A stretch of DNA of 42,669 nt from Deltaproteobacteria bacterium (GTDB lineage Bacteria > Desulfobacterota > Binatia > UTPRO1), in contig JADLHM010000105.1 in the NCBI GenBank assembly GCA_020848745.1, positions 1 to 42,669 on the forward strand, in the 5' to 3' direction. This document shows positions 20,782 to 30,165 of this stretch, piece after piece. How positions within the stretch are numbered: position 1 is the stretch's first letter; each line of letters starts with the position of its first letter. The position numbers were made by a program, and so were the translations under genes. Below the pieces are notes generated by a model. The model saw only the letters and a list, made by a program, of their open reading frames with translations, was not told the origin of the DNA and ran no database searches.

Positions 20782-22125
20782 TCAGCCTGGTGGGCGCGGC
20801 AGGACCGGCGCGCGCGCCGCCCGCGCGAGGTCGGCGTCGGGGTCGACGAAACGGCGGCTCGGACGGCCGTTCAGCGAGACCCAGACGTCGGCGCGCACCT
20901 CGACCTCGCCGCGACCCGCGCGCCGCGCATCGGCGGCGAGATGGCGTGCGTAGTCCGCGATCATGTCGGGCTGGGTCGCCATCATGCTCGCCTGGAGCGG
21001 CGTCAACTCGGCGCGCGGGTCGACCTTCCAGACCGCGCCGGTCGCGGGGTCGCGCAGCCGAAACGTCGCGGTCCCGGCCTTCTCCATCGCCATCACGCGC
21101 CACGCGAAGCGGAAGCCCTCTTCCGTCCACGCGACGTCGTCGGTCGCGACGAACGTCCGGAGGGGGATCGTCGCCTGGAGCGCGAGGTGCAGCACGAGCA
21201 CGCTCATGACCACGCGCTCGGCCGGTACGATCGCCACGCGTCCCGCGCCGGGCGTACGCGCCCCGCACGCCATGGCCGGAAGCCCCGCCGCCACGGCGGC
21301 GCGCACGCGCCGCGGCCATCCCGGATCGAGGAAAACGGGCGTGAGCCCGATCATCAGCCACGGAAAGATCCCGATCGGAAAGAGCAGGCTCGTGAGCACG
21401 TGGAACACGACGACCACCACGTACGCGAGAAGCCGCGTCCGCCGCCAGAACAGGAACGGCGCGACGCCGAGGTCGAAGGCCGCGCCCGCCCAACTGAACG
21501 CCCAGGCTACCCACGGCTCCTCCAGCCACGGCCCGAGCAGCGGCAGGTCGCCGCGCGCCGCCAGCCAGATACGGAGCGGCTGCGCATGCACGAGCCAGTC
21601 GGTGTTCAGCTTCGCGACGCCGCCGTAGAAGTAGACGAGCGCGAGCTGGACCCGCAGCACCCACACCACCCATGCCGGCACGCGCTCCGCCGCGCGCTCC
21701 GGAGCGCGCCACGCATCGACCGACCCCGCGACGCCCATCGGCAGGAGACACATCACCGCCGCGAGCACGCTGACCAGGTAGTAGTGGTTCAGGTAGATCG
21801 TCTTGTCGAGCAAGTGCACCCACGTGAACCCGAGCGCGAAGAGCGCGAGCGAGAGCCGCGTGCAGCACCCCGCGGCGATCGCCAGCGCGAGCACCCCGAG
21901 CGCCGCGAAGTGCAGATGCATCCCCCACGCCGGCCAAGGCCGGATCCACTCGAATCCCGGATACGCGAAGAAGAACCGCGGCCGCACGAACAACGAGTCG
22001 ATCCACCCGTACGCGAAGTACCGCACGACCGCCGCCGCCATCACCGTCCCGAACGCCACCCGAAAGAAGACGAGCGAAGCTGCGTCCACCGGCGAACCCG
22101 GCAATGACCGCCACGCGCCCCTCAT
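20782..22125 (-). CDS. HTTM-domain (gamma-carboxylase-like) membrane protein
   Basis: The 447-aa frame begins MRGAWRSLPGSPVDAASLVF; codons upstream lie in repeat sequence. It shows the HTTM layout: helices with RVAFGTVMAAAV, then LALVYFYGGVAKLNTDWL (the conserved YFYGGxAKLN with the Lys that is catalytic in vitamin K-dependent carboxylase), and FPIGIFPWLMIG. The C-terminal ~130 residues form a soluble domain. Bacterial HTTM proteins are mostly uncharacterised. It lies downstream of the iron-regulated operon but is separated by an inverted repeat, so cotranscription is doubtful. Confidence 0.8.
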   Translation of the reverse strand: MRGAWRSLPGSPVDAASLVFFRVAFGTVMAAAVVRYFAYGWIDSLFVRPRFFFAYPGFEWIRPWPAWGMHLHFAALGVLALAIAAGCCTRLSLALFALGFTWVHLLDKTIYLNHYYLVSVLAAVMCLLPMGVAGSVDAWRAPERAAERVPAWVVWVLRVQLALVYFYGGVAKLNTDWLVHAQPLRIWLAARGDLPLLGPWLEEPWVAWAFSWAGAAFDLGVAPFLFWRRTRLLAYVVVVVFHVLTSLLFPIGIFPWLMIGLTPVFLDPGWPRRVRAAVAAGLPAMACGARTPGAGRVAIVPAERVVMSVLVLHLALQATIPLRTFVATDDVAWTEEGFRFAWRVMAMEKAGTATFRLRDPATGAVWKVDPRAELTPLQASMMATQPDMIADYARHLAADARRAGRGEVEVRADVWVSLNGRPSRRFVDPDADLARAARAPVLPRPPG

Positions 22126-22220
22126 CTCGCGAAGGCGAGCGAAGCGAAGCCAACCACCAGAACCTCGGAAGGCGACGAGCGAAGCGAGTTCGCCCACCAA
22201 TCCACCCACCAGCGACCGGA

Positions 22221-22337
22221 GCGCGCTCAAAAGCGGGCAGATGCTAGGCGCGACCGACTGAGCGCGGAGGCGTAGCGGAGCTACGTCGCACAAGCGAAGG
22301 AGGGAGCAACGACGCAGATGCCCGCTTTTCAGCGCGT
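22221..22337. repeat. REP-like inverted repeat element
   Basis: GCGCGCTCAAAAGCGGGCA (22221-22239) and TGCCCGCTTTTCAGCGCGT (22319-22337) are near-perfect complements (two mismatches) around about 79 bases. These contain a further small hairpin (GTAGC-GGA-GCTAC). The neighbouring bases carry repeated GAGCGAAGCGA motifs. It sits between two minus-strand genes and could end transcription in both directions. No second copy was found in the window. Confidence 0.6.
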
Positions 22338-22342
22338 GACCG

Positions 22343-23647
22343 TCAGTCGCCGTCGTTGCCTCCAAAGGTGAGCTTGACCCCCAGCACGCTCGCCACGTCC
22401 ACCGTCAACGCCCGCCGCAACCGCTGCACCGCCTCGTACGCCGCGAGCGCCTCGTCGCGATGGTTCACGACGGCGTCCGCGAGCGGCTCCGGCACCGCCG
22501 CGACGGCTGCCAGCGCCTCGGTAAGGAGCGCGCGGACCTCCGCGTCGATCTCGGCGCTGAGCGGCGCCACCTGCGAGCCCAGGCCCGTCGCCTGTCCGCC
22601 CGTGTAGGTGCCGCGATAGACGTCGGCGATGCCCTGGAGGTTGGCGCCGATGCCGGCGAGGGCGTCGCCGCTGCGCGGCGACTCGACGAGGTCGGGACGC
22701 GGTCCGCCGGCGTCCACGCCGAGCGGCGCGCCGAGCCGGTTCTCCTCGACGTTCTCGGCCGTGAAGATCATGCGGTTCACGACCTCGTCGAACGCCTCCT
22801 TCAAGGACGCGAACGTCGAACCGCCGATGCCAGAGTCGACGAAGTCCCGACCGAAGTCGCCGCCTCCCGGCTCCCAAGCATCGCGAAGCTCCTCGGTCCG
22901 CTCGCGCACGTTCACGGAGAGCGCCAGCAGATAGGCCCGCCGCCGCGCGTCCTCGTTGCCGAGGAGACGGCCCACCACGCCCGCATCGCCGCCGACTGGG
23001 TCGAAGAGGAAGTACTCCATCGCCTGGAACCCGACCTTCTGCGCACCGAGCGTGTCGAGGTAGGCCGACGAGAGCGCGTTGCCGCCGGCGACCTCCGCGT
23101 CGATCTGGGCCGTGTTCGCGGTCGGCCAGTCGATCCGCGCGCTCGTCCGCTGGGACTCCGAAGGACCGAGACGAAACGCTTCGGTCTCCTTCCACGCGCG
23201 CCGCGTCGCCCGCCACGCCGCTTGTGCGAACGCGAGGCGCTCGCCCCCCGGCGCGGTCACGAGATCCTCGACGGCCACCTGCAACGACGTGGCTTCCGCG
23301 GCGAGCGCGCGATAGCCCGCGATCGCGCCGGCGCTCGAGAGGTCGCGGAGGAAGGTGCGCCGCGGCCCGAGCGACCCGCCCGTCGGGCAGCCGGTCGGGA
23401 TCCCGAGGCCGGCCGCCGCGCGCAGCACGTTGACACCGTCGCTCACGGTGACGGCACCGCTTCCGTCGGCGTCGCAGCGCGCGAGCTCACACTCGCCGAG
23501 CCCGGCCGCCGCGCGCAGGACGCGCACGCCGTCGGTCACGCTGATCGCGCCGCTGTCGTCCGCGTCCCCGCAGATCTGGGCGCGCGCCGCGCCCGTGAGC
23601 GCCAGCACCGCGACCGCCGCCACCAGGATCGTTCTCGAGAGCATCAT
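22343..23647 (-). CDS. Secreted imelysin-like protein with N-terminal dockerin-like repeats
   Basis: The 434-aa protein has a signal peptide (about residues 1-23, cut before QICGDAD) and two dockerin-like calcium loops: GDADDSGAISVTD (27-39) and CDADGSGAVTVSD (58-70), each followed by GVxVLRAAAGL. Residues ~105-425 are all-helical and imelysin-like. The family motif GxHxxE reads GFQAME (206-211) with Gln208 in place of His, so metal binding or activity may be altered. AAAGGA lies 4-7 bases before the two possible ATGs (23647, 23644). It is the last gene of the Fur-box operon, 11 bases after the di-heme protein. Imelysins such as IrpA are iron-regulated and tied to iron uptake. Confidence 0.82.
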   Translation of the reverse strand: MMLSRTILVAAVAVLALTGAARAQICGDADDSGAISVTDGVRVLRAAAGLGECELARCDADGSGAVTVSDGVNVLRAAAGLGIPTGCPTGGSLGPRRTFLRDLSSAGAIAGYRALAAEATSLQVAVEDLVTAPGGERLAFAQAAWRATRRAWKETEAFRLGPSESQRTSARIDWPTANTAQIDAEVAGGNALSSAYLDTLGAQKVGFQAMEYFLFDPVGGDAGVVGRLLGNEDARRRAYLLALSVNVRERTEELRDAWEPGGGDFGRDFVDSGIGGSTFASLKEAFDEVVNRMIFTAENVEENRLGAPLGVDAGGPRPDLVESPRSGDALAGIGANLQGIADVYRGTYTGGQATGLGSQVAPLSAEIDAEVRALLTEALAAVAAVPEPLADAVVNHRDEALAAYEAVQRLRRALTVDVASVLGVKLTFGGNDGD

Positions 23648-23658
23648 GCGTCCTTTTG

Positions 23659-25251
23659 TCACAACGATTCCAGAAAGCGTACGAGAGCGGCGCGGTCGTC
23701 GGCCGGAAGGGCCCGGAACGCCTCGCGCGCGGACGTCGCCTCGCCGCCATGCCAGAGGACGGCCTCGGCAAAGCCGCGCGCGCGCCCGTCGTGCAGGAGG
23801 AAGAGATGGTCGTTCACCGTGAGCACGAGGCCGAGGCCCCAGAGCGGCGGCGTCCGCCACTCGCTGCCGCTCGCGAGGTGGTCCGGGCGTCCGTCGGCGA
23901 GATCCGGCCCGAGGTCGTGCAGCAGGAGGTCGGTGTACGGATGGATGGTCTGTCCCGAGACCGCCGGAAATCCGGCGAGCTCGCCGGTGGCGAGCGTCGG
24001 CACGTGACAGGACGCGCAGCCCGACGCCGCGAAGAGCGCCTCGCCGCGGCGCACGATCGGGTCATCGACGTCGCGCCGGGCCGGCACCGCGAGCAACGTC
24101 ACGTAGAACGTCACCAGGTCGAGCTTCAGTTGGTCGATCTCCGGCACGCCGCCGTTCGGCGCGTCCGCGCACGCGGCCTCGGCGGCCGTGCAGTCCTCGG
24201 ACTCGAACAGGGGCGACGTGATGCCGATGTCGCCGACGAATGCGCCGGCCGTCTGCTGCTCGATCGTCGGCGTGCTCGCCTTCCAGCCGAACCGGCCGAC
24301 GGCCGGCTCGCCGCGCCGGCGGTCCCAGACGAGGTTCGGCCGGCCGGAAATGCCGTCGCCGTCCCCGTCGTCTGGATCGGCGTGGGCGAGGAGCGTCGCC
24401 TCGTCGACCGCCGCGAGGAGGCCGAGGCCGACGATCTGCTGCGCGGTCCGTACCGACGTCAGCACGTCGGGCGCGAGGGGCCCGTAGGCGAGTGCGTCGA
24501 TCGCGAGGTGCGGGGCACGCAAGCGGTACGGCGCGCCGTCGTCGTACGATCCCGCGCGTTCCTCGTAGACGAGGCGCGGCGCGCCCTCGGCGGGCACGCC
24601 GAGAATGGAACGGTTGCCGAGCTGACGCCCATAGCGCGGATCGGCCACGCTCCCGCCGGAGGCGTCGTCGCCCGGGACGCTCAAGCGCACCACCAGCGAC
24701 TCGAAGGCCTCGCCGTCGGCGATCGGCGGCCGGCCGCGCCCGTCCTTGAAGTGGCAGGCCGAGCACGACGCGGCATTGAAGATCGGCCCGAGACCGTCGC
24801 TGCCGACGGTCGACGACGGCGCCGTCACCCAGTTGCGATTGAAGAGCGCGTTGCCGGTGAAGAAGTCGGGACGCTCGCCGAACGGCAGATTCGGCGCGGG
24901 CTGCCCGAACGCGTTCACGGAGGCGTCGAAGACGGTCGCATCACCGCCCGAGCGCGGATCGGGCGCGAGGCCGGGACAGACGAGCGCGCCGTCGAGCCCG
25001 GCCGCGGCGCGCAGCAGGCGCACGCCGTCGGTGACACCGACGGCGCCGCTGCCGTCGACGTCGCACACCGCGACCTCGCAGCCGGCGGCGAGGTTGGCCG
25101 CCGTGCGAAGCGCGCGCACGCCGTCGGTGAGCGACACCGCGCCGCTCCCGTCGGCGTCCCCGCAGACGGCGGCGCGCGCGACGGATGCCGCGAACGCGAC
25201 GGCCGCGCCGAGCAGCAGCGCGGCCGCGCCATGGGATGCGCCGGCCCTCAC
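23659..25251 (-). CDS. Di-heme oxidoreductase (DHOR family) with N-terminal dockerin-like repeats
   Basis: The 530-aa periplasmic c-type cytochrome has two heme motifs: CSACH (163-167, in CSACHFKDGRGRPP, characteristic of the PF06537 family) and CASCH (412-416). A GTG at 25251 gives a clean signal peptide ending ARA before AVCGDADG; upstream codons overlap the neighbour and are Arg-rich. Residues ~30-88 hold two dockerin-like loops (GDADGSGAVSLTD and CDVDGSGAVGVTD), nearly identical to those of the next gene. Such proteins, annotated as thiol oxidoreductases, occur beside imelysin genes in iron-regulated operons. A role in electron transfer to or from iron is inferred. Confidence 0.88.
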   Translation of the reverse strand: MRAGASHGAAALLLGAAVAFAASVARAAVCGDADGSGAVSLTDGVRALRTAANLAAGCEVAVCDVDGSGAVGVTDGVRLLRAAAGLDGALVCPGLAPDPRSGGDATVFDASVNAFGQPAPNLPFGERPDFFTGNALFNRNWVTAPSSTVGSDGLGPIFNAASCSACHFKDGRGRPPIADGEAFESLVVRLSVPGDDASGGSVADPRYGRQLGNRSILGVPAEGAPRLVYEERAGSYDDGAPYRLRAPHLAIDALAYGPLAPDVLTSVRTAQQIVGLGLLAAVDEATLLAHADPDDGDGDGISGRPNLVWDRRRGEPAVGRFGWKASTPTIEQQTAGAFVGDIGITSPLFESEDCTAAEAACADAPNGGVPEIDQLKLDLVTFYVTLLAVPARRDVDDPIVRRGEALFAASGCASCHVPTLATGELAGFPAVSGQTIHPYTDLLLHDLGPDLADGRPDHLASGSEWRTPPLWGLGLVLTVNDHLFLLHDGRARGFAEAVLWHGGEATSAREAFRALPADDRAALVRFLESL

Positions 25252-25270: not shown

Positions 25271-26485
25271 TCATGCGCCGGTGCCCATCGACACGCCGAG
25301 CGCGTCGGCGACGCCCGCGAGACCGTCGGCCTGCGTGAAGAGCGCCGTGATCGCCGCCTCCACGGCGACGCGCCCCGGGCTCTCGTCCGCACCCAGGATT
25401 GCCTGATCGAACGGCTCGGGGATCGCCTGGATCGCGGCGACGCTCGCCGCGAGCTGCTGCTGCACCGCCGCGTCGAGCGCCGGATCGACCTGGCGCACGA
25501 GATCGTCGAGGCCCGGGCCGTCGAGGTCGCGGTACCGCCCGAGGTAGCCGTTCTGGATCCCGACGGCGTCGTTCGCGAGGTCGTCGCGGGTCCTGTCGGA
25601 GAAGCACGAATGCTCGTCTTCCTGGTCGCGGGTCTCGAAGGCGACGCTCAAGCGCTCGCCGCCGAGCTCGCTCGCGCTGAGCGTCCCGAGCCCGGTGAGG
25701 ATGCGGCCGAGGGCCTCTTCGGGGTCGAGGGCGAGGAACTCGGCCCGGTAGTTGCCGGCGTCGCCCGGCGCCCATGCTTCGACCACCTGCTCCAGATCGT
25801 CGATGAGCAGATCCGCCGCCGCTTGCAGGTACGCGCCCCGGCGCTGCTGGTTCTCCGCCGTGCCGGTGCCGTCGGTCACGTAGTCGGTGAACGGCCGGGC
25901 GCCCGGCCCCGTCGCGCTGCGGTCCTGTCCCCAGAGCAAGAATTCGATCGCGTGGTAGCCGGTCGCGACGTTGGTCTCGCCGCCGTCCTCGTTCGCCGCC
26001 GCGAGCGTCTCCCGGTCGATTACCGGGAACCCGGCCGGATCGTTCACGATGCCGCTCGTCGGCGCGCCCTCGACGTAGTCGATGTAGTTCTCGTCGAGCG
26101 GCCAGGCGTTGATGCGACCCTCGGGGCCGGTCTCGGGATCGTCGATCGGCCCGTTGTAGAAGCGGCCGATCTCGCTCTGCTGATAGGCCGGGCGCGCCGC
26201 GATCCACGCCGCCTTGGCGGCGTCGAACGTCGCCTGGCTCGGCGCCTCGACGAAGGCGTCGATCGCATCGCGCAGCGCCTCCGCGCCCGCGAGGGCGTCC
26301 TGGTAGGCGGCATGGAGCCCGTCGGCGTAGTGGGCAACGACGGCGGCGGCGGTCACCTGGGTCGGCGTCGCGGTCGCCGTGGGCGCCGGCGTCCCGTTGC
26401 CGCCGCCATGGCCGTTGTCGTTGTCACCGCAGCCGGCCGCGAGCACGGCGGCGGCGGCCATCATCACGAGCAGTCGCTTCATCAT
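25271..26485 (-). CDS. Imelysin-family lipoprotein (IrpA-like)
   Basis: The 404-aa protein has a lipobox VLAAGC with Cys19, a Gly/Asp- and Thr/Pro-rich spacer (20-43), then the helical imelysin domain. The family motif GxHxxE is intact as GYHAIE (176-181), followed by FLLWGQD, and the WPLDENYIDYVEG segment is also typical. It is probably anchored in the outer or inner membrane facing the periplasm. It lies 19 bases from each operon neighbour. Imelysin-type proteins are implicated in iron uptake; direct peptidase activity is doubtful for most. Confidence 0.92.
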   Translation of the reverse strand: MMKRLLVMMAAAAVLAAGCGDNDNGHGGGNGTPAPTATATPTQVTAAAVVAHYADGLHAAYQDALAGAEALRDAIDAFVEAPSQATFDAAKAAWIAARPAYQQSEIGRFYNGPIDDPETGPEGRINAWPLDENYIDYVEGAPTSGIVNDPAGFPVIDRETLAAANEDGGETNVATGYHAIEFLLWGQDRSATGPGARPFTDYVTDGTGTAENQQRRGAYLQAAADLLIDDLEQVVEAWAPGDAGNYRAEFLALDPEEALGRILTGLGTLSASELGGERLSVAFETRDQEDEHSCFSDRTRDDLANDAVGIQNGYLGRYRDLDGPGLDDLVRQVDPALDAAVQQQLAASVAAIQAIPEPFDQAILGADESPGRVAVEAAITALFTQADGLAGVADALGVSMGTGA

Positions 26486-26504: not shown

Positions 26505-27020
26505 TCAGTCGTCGTCGTCCGGCGCGCTCGAGCGGTAGTCGTTCGGTTGTATGGTGTAGATGGCCCAGAGCACCGCGCCGATCATGAACGCGAGCACGGC
26601 TTCGAGGCCGAGGAAGGCCGCGACCTTGAGCCAGGCGAAGAGCGGCGAGACGAAGCGGACCAGCCAGCCTGCCGCCTCGTCCGCGAGGGCGGCCGTGAAC
26701 GCGAGGCTCACGACGAGCGCCTTGCGGTGGTTCGGCATCGGCACGAAGAGCAGGAGGTGCGTCATCGTCAGCACCAGCATGCCCATGGCGAAGAGGTGGA
26801 AGTGGGTGATCTCGAGGAGGCCCTGATAGCTCCGCGGCTGGGTGAACATCGCCTCGTCGCCGAGGTAGTAGGCGACGACCGACGCCGGGTTCAACGTCAT
26901 CTTGGCGAAATAGAGGAGCGCGTTGGTCACCCAGAGGAGCGTGACGAACACGAGGAACCACACCAGCACGAGCCGGAGCAGCCGGTTGTCCTTCCAGTCG
27001 CGCGTGATGGTGAAGCGCAT
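26505..27020 (-). CDS. Four-helix membrane protein of unknown family in the iron operon
   Basis: I do not recognise the family with confidence. The 171-aa protein has a basic N-terminus (MRFTITRDWKDNRLLRL), about four membrane helices (~17-38, 72-94, 100-120, 130-160) and an acidic tail (APDDDD). Histidines lie in EITHFHLFAMGMLVLTMTH (H73, H75, H88), which could ligate heme or metal in the membrane. It begins directly where the FMN-binding gene ends (27020/27021), so the two are coupled. It may pass electrons across the membrane to the flavoprotein, or anchor it; both ideas are inference. Confidence 0.7.
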   Translation of the reverse strand: MRFTITRDWKDNRLLRLVLVWFLVFVTLLWVTNALLYFAKMTLNPASVVAYYLGDEAMFTQPRSYQGLLEITHFHLFAMGMLVLTMTHLLLFVPMPNHRKALVVSLAFTAALADEAAGWLVRFVSPLFAWLKVAAFLGLEAVLAFMIGAVLWAIYTIQPNDYRSSAPDDDD

Positions 27021-27656
27021 CTAGCGTCCCGTCCCCGGAACGGCGGCGGGCGTGGCACCGGCTTCCGGCGCGGAGACGGGCGCGCCGGCCGCGCGCTCCG
27101 CGTCCGGGGCGAGCACCACGACCGCGACGAGGGCCAGAGCGCGCCGCACGCCGGCCGTCATCGCTTGCGCGCTCAACGTGGCGCCGGTGATGCCCTGGAT
27201 GCCGGCGCCGAGCTTGAGATCGCCGTCGAGCGCGCGGCCGTCGAACTGCCCGATCCAGCGCTCGGTCGGGAGGTACTCGGGCGGCTCGTGGAAGGCGAGC
27301 ACGTCGACCCGGCGGAGCTTGCCGTCGGGATCGACCACCACCATGAACGTCTCGGGCAAGGTGCGGACGATGTGGCTGTCGATGACGGCGTAGCCCTGCA
27401 CCGCTCCGGCCTTCCAGCCGACGTGGATCGTCCACAGCTGGGTGTCGAGCGGCGCGCGGGCGCGCTGCTCGACCTCGGCCTTCTGGGCGTCGGTGAGGAT
27501 GACGACCCGCTCCTCGATGCGGTCGTTCTCGGGAAACGCGAGGGCCAGCGCCTCGTCCTTGGCGAGGAAGACGGCGGCGCGCGCCGCGCGGCCCGCCGCA
27601 CACGCCGCGACGACCATGCCGAGCAACGCCGCCAGCCGCAGACGCCGAACGCGCAC
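27021..27656 (-). CDS. FMN-binding domain protein (periplasmic, probably flavinylated)
   Basis: The 211-aa protein starts at a GTG 2 bases after the porin stop. The N-terminus can be read as a lipobox (VVAAC, Cys19) or a signal peptide cut near ARAAVF. The domain resembles RnfG/NqrC FMN-binding regions and contains GITGATLSAQAMT; Thr160 in TGAT is the expected covalent FMN site. The same operon encodes ApbE, which transfers FMN to such threonines. An Ala/Pro-rich tail (185-211) ends the chain. It is likely an electron carrier between the membrane and a periplasmic partner. Confidence 0.82.
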   Translation of the reverse strand: MRVRRLRLAALLGMVVAACAAGRAARAAVFLAKDEALALAFPENDRIEERVVILTDAQKAEVEQRARAPLDTQLWTIHVGWKAGAVQGYAVIDSHIVRTLPETFMVVVDPDGKLRRVDVLAFHEPPEYLPTERWIGQFDGRALDGDLKLGAGIQGITGATLSAQAMTAGVRRALALVAVVVLAPDAERAAGAPVSAPEAGATPAAVPGTGR

Positions 27657-27658
27657 CG

Positions 27659-29131
27659 TCAGAACACGAATCCCGCGCCGAGGTTGACCTCGTCGGCGCG
27701 CGGCTTGCCGCCGCCCGCGTTGAAGTTGCGGTACTCGAGCTTCAAGACGACCTGCGGGTGCGGCTTGTAGTCGAGGCCGACAGTGTAGAGCTGGACGTCG
27801 TTCCCCGGCACGCGGGCGAAGCCCCGCGGCACCTTGTCCTGCGTGTCGAAGATCTCGTAGCGGAAGAACGGCGAGAGGTACTGCGTCGTGTCCGGAAGGA
27901 CGAGCGGAAGGACGTCGTACGCGGCCTCGGCGTAGAAGCCGAAGATGTCCTCGGCGATCGTCTCCTCGGCGGCGCGGCTCAGCGTGTCGGCGTCGTCGAT
28001 CGAGGTCATCGCGCCGAGCACGCGGAGCTCGAGGCCCCGGTACCGGGCCTGCGCGTGCGCCTCCCAGAGCAGCGTGAAGGCATTCGGCTTGTCACCGTCG
28101 AACTCGCCGTTCTGGCCGGTGTTGCCGGCGAAGAAGGACGCGCCGACCATGGTCCCCGCGAAGGGCGTGTAATCGAGGCGCATCGTGCCGGCGAGGTCCT
28201 CGGCGACGGCGCGGTTGCCGCTCTGCCTCCCGTCGCGAATGCCCTTCGACTCGTAGCCGGCGGCGTTCAGGCTGTTCATGAGGTAGGCGCGATACTCGAG
28301 CCCGGGCGCCAGGGTTCCGAAGAAGCCGACGCCGCCCTCGCGCCAGGTCGTCGGGATGATCGAGCGCTCCACCTCCGGACGGAGGACGCCGTGGAAGAAC
28401 GGCGGCTCGTGCACCTCGTTGATGAAGCCCATCGGGACGAGGAGGAGACCGGCGCGCACGTTCAGCTGTTGCCAGAGCATGAAGTCGAGGTACGCGAACT
28501 CGACCTCGACCGCGCCGCTGTCGGAGCTGACGGTCTCCTCGCCGATGAGCGCGTGCTCGAACTCGATCTCCGCGTTCATCAGGATGCGATCGGTGAACTT
28601 GTAGCCGGTGTACAGGACGAAGCGCAGGACGTCGAAGCGATCGCGCTTCCCTTGCTGATCGCTCACGTACTTCTGGAAGTTGTACTCCCCGTAGCCGCCG
28701 ATCGAGAGGCCGCGGTCGACCTGGTAGACCTTCGACGCCGCCGGGCCGAGGCCGTAGACGCTCTTGAGCTCCTTGTGCTCGGGGAGGACAAGGGCACGCT
28801 TGAGACGATCCACCTCCGTCGCGAGGACGCCGATCTTGCGATCCTGCTCGGCGGCCGCCCCGGCCGTCACCTCCTGCGCGGATGGGGACGCCGCGGGGGC
28901 GGTCGCCGCGGGCGCCGCCGCTCCCTTCGGCGCACGGCTCGGCGTGCCCCGCTCCGCTTCGAGCGCCCGCAGGCGCGCACGCATGTCCTCCATCTCCTTC
29001 TGCATGCGATCGAGCTGCTCCTGATAGGCGCGGATGCGCGGATCGTCGGCGGCGAACGCCGGCACGATCCCCGTCTGGGCGGCGAGGAGGACGACCAAGA
29101 GCGACCACGCGACGATACGACGATTCTTCAT
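27659..29131 (-). CDS. OprO/OprP-like outer-membrane porin
   Basis: The 490-aa protein has a signal peptide (cut near AFA-ADD), a coiled coil (~30-65, YQEQLDRMQKEMEDMRARLRALEAE), an Ala/Pro linker, and a beta-barrel of alternating strands ending in Phe (GAGFVF), the outer-membrane insertion signal. Segments such as GLSIGGYGEYNF and LRPEVERSIIPTTWREGGVGFFG match the phosphate-selective porin superfamily. It overlaps apbE by ATGA. The substrate cannot be read from the sequence; in an iron operon it may admit iron chelates, which is inference. Confidence 0.85.
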   Translation of the reverse strand: MKNRRIVAWSLLVVLLAAQTGIVPAFAADDPRIRAYQEQLDRMQKEMEDMRARLRALEAERGTPSRAPKGAAAPAATAPAASPSAQEVTAGAAAEQDRKIGVLATEVDRLKRALVLPEHKELKSVYGLGPAASKVYQVDRGLSIGGYGEYNFQKYVSDQQGKRDRFDVLRFVLYTGYKFTDRILMNAEIEFEHALIGEETVSSDSGAVEVEFAYLDFMLWQQLNVRAGLLLVPMGFINEVHEPPFFHGVLRPEVERSIIPTTWREGGVGFFGTLAPGLEYRAYLMNSLNAAGYESKGIRDGRQSGNRAVAEDLAGTMRLDYTPFAGTMVGASFFAGNTGQNGEFDGDKPNAFTLLWEAHAQARYRGLELRVLGAMTSIDDADTLSRAAEETIAEDIFGFYAEAAYDVLPLVLPDTTQYLSPFFRYEIFDTQDKVPRGFARVPGNDVQLYTVGLDYKPHPQVVLKLEYRNFNAGGGKPRADEVNLGAGFVF

Positions 29132-30165
29132 TGCCTGCTCTCCATGATGGCGGGGCGCACGGCCGGCGGGGAGGCGGCGGGACGCGGGTCAAAGCCTCGG
29201 GGCGGTACTCCGGCGAACGTGATACGGCCGTCCTCGACGAACAGCGCGCCGACGCCGGACAAGCGCGCCAGGACGGCGGCGGCCCCCGGGGGGCCGACCA
29301 CGAGGAGCGCCGTCGAGAGGGCGTCGGCGGTCGTGGCGTCGGGCGCCCACACCGTGACGGCGAGATCACCGCCCACGGGACGTCCGGTACGCGGATCGTA
29401 GACGTGGCTCGGCGCGCGCCAGCCCTCGGCGGCGAAGTCGCGCGCGTAGTTGCCGGACGTCGAGACGGCGAGGTCGCGATCGAGCACGAGCGTTCCGACA
29501 CTGCCCTCCGGGTCCTCGGGATCGCGGACGGCGATGCGCCAACCGCCCTCCGGACCCTCGCCGAGCAGCGCGAGGTTACCCCCGAGATCGATGACCCCGC
29601 GGCGTGCGCCCATGGCCAGAAGCGCCGCCCGGGCCCGATCGAGGCCGTAGCCCTTGGCGATCCCGCCGAGGTCGACCGCCATCCCGTCGCGAGCGAAGCG
29701 GACGGTACGGGTCGGAGCGTCGAGGAGGAGGCCGCCCCACCCGACGGCGTCGACGCGGCCGGGCGGAAGATGCGCGAGCTCCCGATAGGCGCCCCACCTC
29801 CGCAAGAGCGGCAAGACGGTCGCGTCGAACGCGCCGTCGGTGAGCGCGCTCAGGGCGCGGGCGCGCGCGAGGCACTCGAACAGCTCGGCGTCCACGGGCT
29901 CGGCATGGCGCGCGGCGTGGAGGTTCACCCGGACGAGCGCGCTTTCCGGCCGGTAGAGGCTCATCGTCGCGTCGACGCGCCGGAGCGCCGCGAACGCCGC
30001 CTCGAAGACGTCGCTCCGCGGGTCCGCGAGCGTGACGCGCGCGATCGTTCCCATAACCAGCTCGGCGCGGGTGGCAGACCCAGCGGCGGCCGAGGCCGCG
30101 CCGAACGTGAGGAGGCCGAGCATCACGAGCGCGGCGACGGGTCGTCGGGGACGCATGGAGAACAT
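29128..30165 (-). CDS. apbE: FAD:protein FMN transferase ApbE
   Basis: ApbE uses FAD to attach FMN covalently to Thr in FMN-binding domains outside the cytoplasm. The 345-aa protein has a signal peptide (residues ~1-29), the opening ELVMGTIARVTL, the conserved DGAFDATVLPLL, DLGGIAKGYGLDRA (nucleotide and Mg site), a VIDLGGNLALLG stretch and the C-terminal TADALSTALLVVG with its catalytic Asp and Thr. It is the first gene after the Fur box, and its target is two genes downstream. No clear Shine-Dalgarno precedes either ATG (30165 or 30156). Confidence 0.94.
   Translation of the reverse strand: MFSMRPRRPVAALVMLGLLTFGAASAAAGSATRAELVMGTIARVTLADPRSDVFEAAFAALRRVDATMSLYRPESALVRVNLHAARHAEPVDAELFECLARARALSALTDGAFDATVLPLLRRWGAYRELAHLPPGRVDAVGWGGLLLDAPTRTVRFARDGMAVDLGGIAKGYGLDRARAALLAMGARRGVIDLGGNLALLGEGPEGGWRIAVRDPEDPEGSVGTLVLDRDLAVSTSGNYARDFAAEGWRAPSHVYDPRTGRPVGGDLAVTVWAPDATTADALSTALLVVGPPGAAAVLARLSGVGALFVEDGRITFAGVPPRGFDPRPAASPPAVRPAIMESRQ

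Follow-up and report, generated by a model that had tools for sequence, protein, structure and literature searches.

The window, that is, the whole stretch of 42,669 nucleotides analysed here, is contig C105 of a Deltaproteobacteria bacterium genome of 4.88 Mb in 155 contigs. Its minus strand carries, in the order of transcription, genes for ApbE, a porin-like barrel, an FMN-binding protein, a small membrane protein, imelysin 1, a di-heme oxidoreductase (DHOR), imelysin 2 and an HTTM/vitamin K-dependent gamma-carboxylase-like membrane protein. The first four genes (26505-30165, minus strand) are tightly packed into one operon with those for the imelysins and DHOR, an arrangement suggesting that flavin-based electron transfer outside the cytoplasm is coupled to metal handling. 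Imelysin 1 (25271-26485, minus strand; PF09375, E=9.5e-83), the upstream partner of the two proteins considered below, is a lipoprotein with the lipobox LAAGC, a GxHxxE motif and no additional module. DHOR (23659-25251, minus strand; PF06537, E=2.5e-95), for which a GTG start at 25251 was inferred, consists of a type I signal peptide, a dockerin-type module and a DHOR domain with two CxxCH motifs in its sequence. Imelysin 2 (22343-23647, minus strand; PF09375, E=1.4e-42) is built likewise from a type I signal peptide, a dockerin-type module and an imelysin domain, here of the GxxxxE kind (GFQAME). No lipobox was found when the N-termini of imelysin 2 and DHOR were scored for one. The HTTM gene (20782-22365, minus strand; PF05090, E=3.6e-83, and synteny) overlaps imelysin 2 with its given start, the true start being probably lower. 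It is a conserved neighbour in clusters with and without the module, and we rejected a special tie between the two because the gene also occurs in module-free clusters. Among named relatives, the closest to share this cluster is the MAG 'Deltaproteobacteria bacterium isolate SJ588' (JADYZW010000041.1), and the order imelysin 1, DHOR, imelysin 2, HTTM recurs in Archangium, Polyangiaceae MAGs and others.

A first-pass annotation made from the letters alone had proposed that imelysin 2 and DHOR share an N-terminal module with paired calcium loops, more alike than the domains behind it. The alignment bears this out: over the mature N-termini, 43 of 64 residues are identical (67%, E=2e-19), and the remainder of the two proteins yields chance matches alone. 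The module, of about 65 residues, comes immediately after the signal peptide in DHOR as in imelysin 2 and is a tandem of two loop-helix units; its two loops, each 12 residues long, fit the pattern D-x-D-x-S-G-x(5)-D and lead into GVxxLRxAAxL. In imelysin 2, it spans 23384-23578 (minus strand; profile match 1.4e-37, modelled), with putative calcium loops, recognized in the sequence, at 23531-23566 (DADDSGAISVTD) and 23438-23473 (DADGSGAVTVSD), both on the minus strand. The module of DHOR lies at 24973-25170 (minus strand; profile match 5.9e-37, aligned), and its putative loops, again read from the sequence, at 25123-25158 (DADGSGAVSLTD) and 25027-25062 (DVDGSGAVGVTD), also on the minus strand. 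At the DNA level, these are four 114-nt units with a repeat identity of 61-72%. Recent duplication of one module from the other was considered and rejected: the two are 65% identical, close to the mean of 61% over all pairs in the genome, and do not group in a tree that is itself poorly resolved. For the same reasons, they look separately acquired. Both are conserved in the sister species, at 86-95% identity.

An alignment of 54 copies from relatives contains eight invariant columns: four are Cys, and the other four are the Asp residues that open and close each loop (positions 1 and 12). Loop position 3 is D or N and position 5 is S, D or N in most of the 54 modules, and every aligned copy retains the loop and helix positions. 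Furthermore, at positions 10, 13, 14 and 21, both loops change together between lineages, as the two faces of a two-sided binding surface would. An AlphaFold2 model of the imelysin 2 module, computed from our own alignment of the 54 copies, has a pLDDT of 93.3 and a pTM of 0.81, with helices at residues 14-24 and 45-55, and the paired EF-hand-like loop geometry anticipated in the first pass is present in it. The best 33 rows of a Foldseek search against the PDB are all dockerins; against 4uyp/4uyq the model reaches Z 10.5 over 65 residues. The VIA-align rows, too, comprise dockerins only, but they cover just Foldseek's own matches and so carry no evidence against other EF-hand folds. Type I dockerins comprise two repeats, each with a 12-residue calcium loop (ligands at positions 1, 3, 5, 9 and 12) and a following helix. 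The module has the same two loop-plus-helix repeats, with Asp at loop positions 1 and 12 in 54 of 54 copies, and a broad module profile matches the sequence of the dockerin 1ohz_B at 7.5e-5. PF00404 and NCBIfam miss both window copies, no PF00404 match exceeds the cut-off anywhere in the genome, and NCBIfam yields nothing usable there, although the copy of one relative (L228) does pass PF00404 (23.4 versus 22.9 bits); such a cut-off marks the limit of detection and does not define a dockerin. Judged by its predicted fold and sequence profile, and despite the Pfam and NCBIfam misses in the window, the module belongs to the dockerins, as a divergent form that has four conserved Cys.

The genome-wide search proposed in the first pass, run with a profile built from the two window copies, recovered 16 strong copies. 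The suggestion that the module is movable thus holds, given that the 16 copies reside on unrelated secreted proteins, but it is not exclusively N-terminal, with four of the 16 at the C-terminus. Nor is it a general feature of exported proteins, 16 of which carry it rather than all. Copies sit either after the signal peptide, in many cases with a similar junction (A-x-A-Q-x-CGDAD), or C-terminally behind linkers. The carriers include a matrixin-like metalloprotease, a subtilase, a sugar dehydrogenase (GSDH), an Ig-domain protein and propellers. On contig C145 (L063, 7153-10987), three adjoining dockerin-tagged proteins with no Pfam match are followed by a dockerin-tagged subtilase. Family searches detected no glycoside hydrolase among the 16 dockerin proteins, and each cohesin protein of this genome has a single cohesin; the complement is therefore not that of a cellulosome, in which a scaffoldin with several cohesins and a carbohydrate-binding module gathers dockerin-tagged glycoside hydrolases.

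That no cohesin is visible, as stated in the first pass, is correct for the window; elsewhere in the genome there are five cohesin-type domains. A PF00963 search of the genome (G000) at E<=0.01 gave no match, which again concerns a detection limit and not a trait that defines cohesins. The C56 operon encodes a dockerin-bearing protein that ends in a cohesin-looking domain, and a neighbouring protein ends in a similar one. The first of these domains, which was modelled (L061, contig C56, 7665-8042; pLDDT 90.4), gives Z 9.6 to the cohesin 1anu and 9.5 to the non-cellulosomal 2xdh, and its best Foldseek rows are cohesins, so that by its predicted fold it is a cohesin. A broader profile identified the five domains (C56, 6955-7362 and 7665-8036; C30, 213-521; C110, 90170-90463; C52, 9263-9556) at E<1e-4 and gave nothing below E 0.1 in eight module-free genomes; its sole sequence match in the PDB is 2xdh. 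In profile comparison, Pfam-detected cohesins match the family of the modelled domain (profile A8) with a probability of 88 and E 2.9e-6. An earlier impression that cohesin counts are unlinked to module number, obtained with the first profile (A2), was a sensitivity artefact that vanished with the broader profiles A6 and A8, and an alignment in which module and cohesin rows were mixed (A4) was misaligned and discarded.

Two of the five cohesins, one of them with its own dockerin, are encoded in the C56 operon. This operon (L061, 1-9872) is preceded by a cobalamin riboswitch and is cobalamin-uptake-like, encoding a TonB receptor, a YncE-like lipoprotein, TonB and a periplasmic binding protein; in genomes G003 and G004, the cohesin domain is instead fused to the YncE-like lipoprotein. 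A different context is provided by contig C30 (L062), where positions 3-566 encode a lipoprotein with the lipobox MTGGC, a Pro/Thr linker and one cohesin-type domain. This domain matches profile A8 with a probability of 98.4 and E 1e-14, and a set of five Pfam-type cohesins weakly (probability 7%); on profile comparison, it falls into the family of the modelled C56 cohesin. The ends of contigs C145 (end of L063) and C30 (start of L062) overlap by 97 identical bases, which places the lipoprotein gene directly after four dockerin genes; one more dockerin gene lies beyond it on the opposite strand. The sister genome G001 breaks at the same place (C20/C47), and the C145/C30 junction is therefore probably a repeat-caused assembly break. 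In G002 and G004, the lipoprotein cohesin adjoins dockerin genes. In relatives, single proteins combine the module with two or three cohesin-type domains, and in some of the multi-cohesin proteins (L227, L228, L229, L232), Cys-rich DUF4215/myxo_disulf repeats lie between the cohesins and the dockerin.

In a set of 58 genomes from the class, the module and cohesin-type domains occur together: 21 genomes contain both, three the module only, three the cohesin-type domain only and 31 neither (p=9.6e-10). When PF00963 matches are added, 24 of 24 module genomes have a cohesin. At the family level, the corresponding counts are 10/0/1/4 (p=0.004). Within carriers, the numbers of modules and cohesins correlate weakly (rho 0.38, p=0.07), and PKD domains, chosen to control for genomes rich in secreted modules, show no significant correlation with it (rho 0.21, p=0.11). 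In G008 and G054, there are 84 and 106 modules versus 10 and 13 detected cohesin-type domains.

Several characterised imelysins are reported to be lipid-anchored (PMC3143127), and in other species the DHOR and imelysin 2 of the same cluster are lipoproteins without the module. We scored 33 imelysin and DHOR N-termini from 13 loci of this cluster, with start codons picked by hand. A clear lipobox and no module were found in 26 of the 33; three more have a correctly placed Cys in an atypical motif, again with no module. The remaining four are devoid of a lipobox, and all four carry a paired calcium-loop module: the window DHOR, the window imelysin 2, imelysin 1 of MAG Co_bin.149 and imelysin 1 of G050. 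In the Co_bin.149 protein, the module is an EF-hand pair of another type directly behind the signal peptide. Imelysin 1 of G050 (L175, 8622-10001, minus strand) likewise has a paired calcium-loop module of another type, inserted inside the imelysin domain. The mutual exclusion of lipobox and module gives a Fisher p of 2.4e-5 with the three atypical proteins taken as lipoproteins and of 8.6e-4 (by hand) otherwise, both values being optimistic because the sequences are related; the counts, moreover, are not independent because the exchange in DHOR and imelysin 2 represents one lineage. Read against their relatives, the module has taken over from a lost lipobox in the window DHOR and imelysin 2. 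Two further genomes with another gene arrangement, G048 and G028 (L173, L174), were left out of this count. Their imelysin and DHOR have in common an Ig-like N-terminal region of about 190 residues and no lipobox, by sequence a second, independent case of an imelysin/DHOR pair sharing an accessory domain.

The explanation that we favour, and consider reasonably probable, is that a non-cellulosomal dockerin/cohesin system serves as a lipid anchor in trans and co-locates imelysin 2 and DHOR. In relatives, the imelysin and the DHOR of the cluster each have an N-terminal lipid that keeps them at the membrane, whereas in this genus DHOR and imelysin 2 have a cleavable signal peptide and a dockerin in its stead. 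In the presence of calcium, the dockerins are predicted to plug into cohesin domains of their own genome, the chief candidate for the socket being the small lipoprotein made up of a single cohesin joined by a Pro/Thr linker to its lipid anchor. Imelysin 2, DHOR and the other dockerin-tagged secreted proteins would thus sit at the membrane near one another, anchored in trans, and lipidated cohesins could bring DHOR and imelysin 2 beside the lipidated imelysin 1. What the computations show is the common module with its predicted dockerin fold, the cohesin fold predicted for one domain, a cohesin lipoprotein gene within a dockerin gene cluster, the exchange of lipobox and module, and the co-occurrence across genomes. 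Calcium binding, cohesin binding, the cohesin used and the membrane face are features that we infer; that metal handling is involved is deduced from the protein families to which the imelysin and DHOR belong. This genome has 16 dockerins for its five cohesins, and the location of two of the five in a cobalamin-riboswitch operon does not suit a single general scaffold.

Alternatively, the module might lack a protein partner and serve at the end of secreted proteins as a cap that promotes folding or stability with calcium, or as an aid to export. Paired calcium loops with four conserved Cys would fit a rigid cap, as would the position at chain ends beside linkers. Such a cap, however, would not be expected to match dockerins specifically among solved structures, to replace lipid anchors, to be tracked across genomes by cohesin-type domains or to be joined with several cohesins in single proteins, and we regard it as unlikely. 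Docking on something other than a cohesin, be it a polysaccharide, an S-layer-like or outer-membrane protein or another dockerin, as in a mutual hold of DHOR and imelysin, appears distinctly unlikely. The skewed copy numbers in G008 and G054 speak for it, and the similarity of the two loops within one window module (71-75%) could permit self-pairing, but known dockerins of this fold bind cohesins, with solved complexes among the matches, and every module genome has a cohesin-type match by some profile. A third possibility is that recombination spread a cassette of signal peptide plus module, which took the place of lipoprotein signals fortuitously and has no selected role in DHOR or imelysin 2. 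This would account for the similar junctions and for window modules that are not sisters in the tree, but is highly improbable given that both members of one functional pair changed, that both modules are conserved in the sister species and that loop and helix positions are retained in all copies.

Cohesin-dockerin pairs are known mainly from cellulosomes. The module resembles the type I dockerins of clostridial cellulosomes (1ohz, 2ccl, 4uyp) in its two calcium loops, each with a helix (predicted fold, Z 7.6 to 10.5), in its near two-fold symmetry and in its location at the end of secreted proteins. It differs in having four conserved Cys, in the window copies falling below Pfam detection, in its frequent N-terminal position right behind the signal peptide and in being attached to metal-handling and uncharacterised proteins rather than plant-wall enzymes. 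Non-cellulosomal cohesins and dockerins have been described, for instance, the Archaeoglobus fulgidus cohesin 2xdh (Peer et al., 2009, as cited in PMC9012536). With these, the present system shares single or few cohesins and the lack of a cellulase context; by contrast, dockerins in this class number as many as 106 per genome, relatives encode multi-cohesin proteins, and there is a cohesin that is lipidated. ANME archaea possess dockerin-tagged substrate-binding proteins, TroA and NikA/OppA (PMC9012536), and syntrophic sulfate reducers cohesin/dockerin adhesins (PMC10553843). Dockerins on metal-uptake proteins and a proposed surface attachment are common ground, but the families here are imelysin and DHOR, and the exchange with a lipid anchor is visible within the same gene cluster. 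In imelysin/DUF1111 iron-uptake gene clusters, the imelysin and the di-heme enzyme are likewise neighbours (PMC3143127); in the cluster studied here, by contrast, two of the three proteins have a dockerin in place of the lipid. Our literature search found no paper linking a dockerin with imelysin or with Binatia.

More tentatively, and as a proposition that falls somewhat short of evenly balanced, the system may operate genome-wide as a sorting system in an uncultured Gram-negative lineage: dockerin tags would replace lipoboxes, proteins exported in soluble form would be caught on the membrane by one-cohesin lipoproteins, and pathway partners would come to lie side by side, all below the detection of domain libraries. 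Species differ in whether this cluster uses a lipid anchor or a dockerin, which makes anchoring in trans directly testable. The dockerin/cohesin complement reaches 106 and 13 copies per genome and falls largely below the Pfam and NCBIfam cut-offs, and such systems are therefore probably under-counted in uncultured bacteria.
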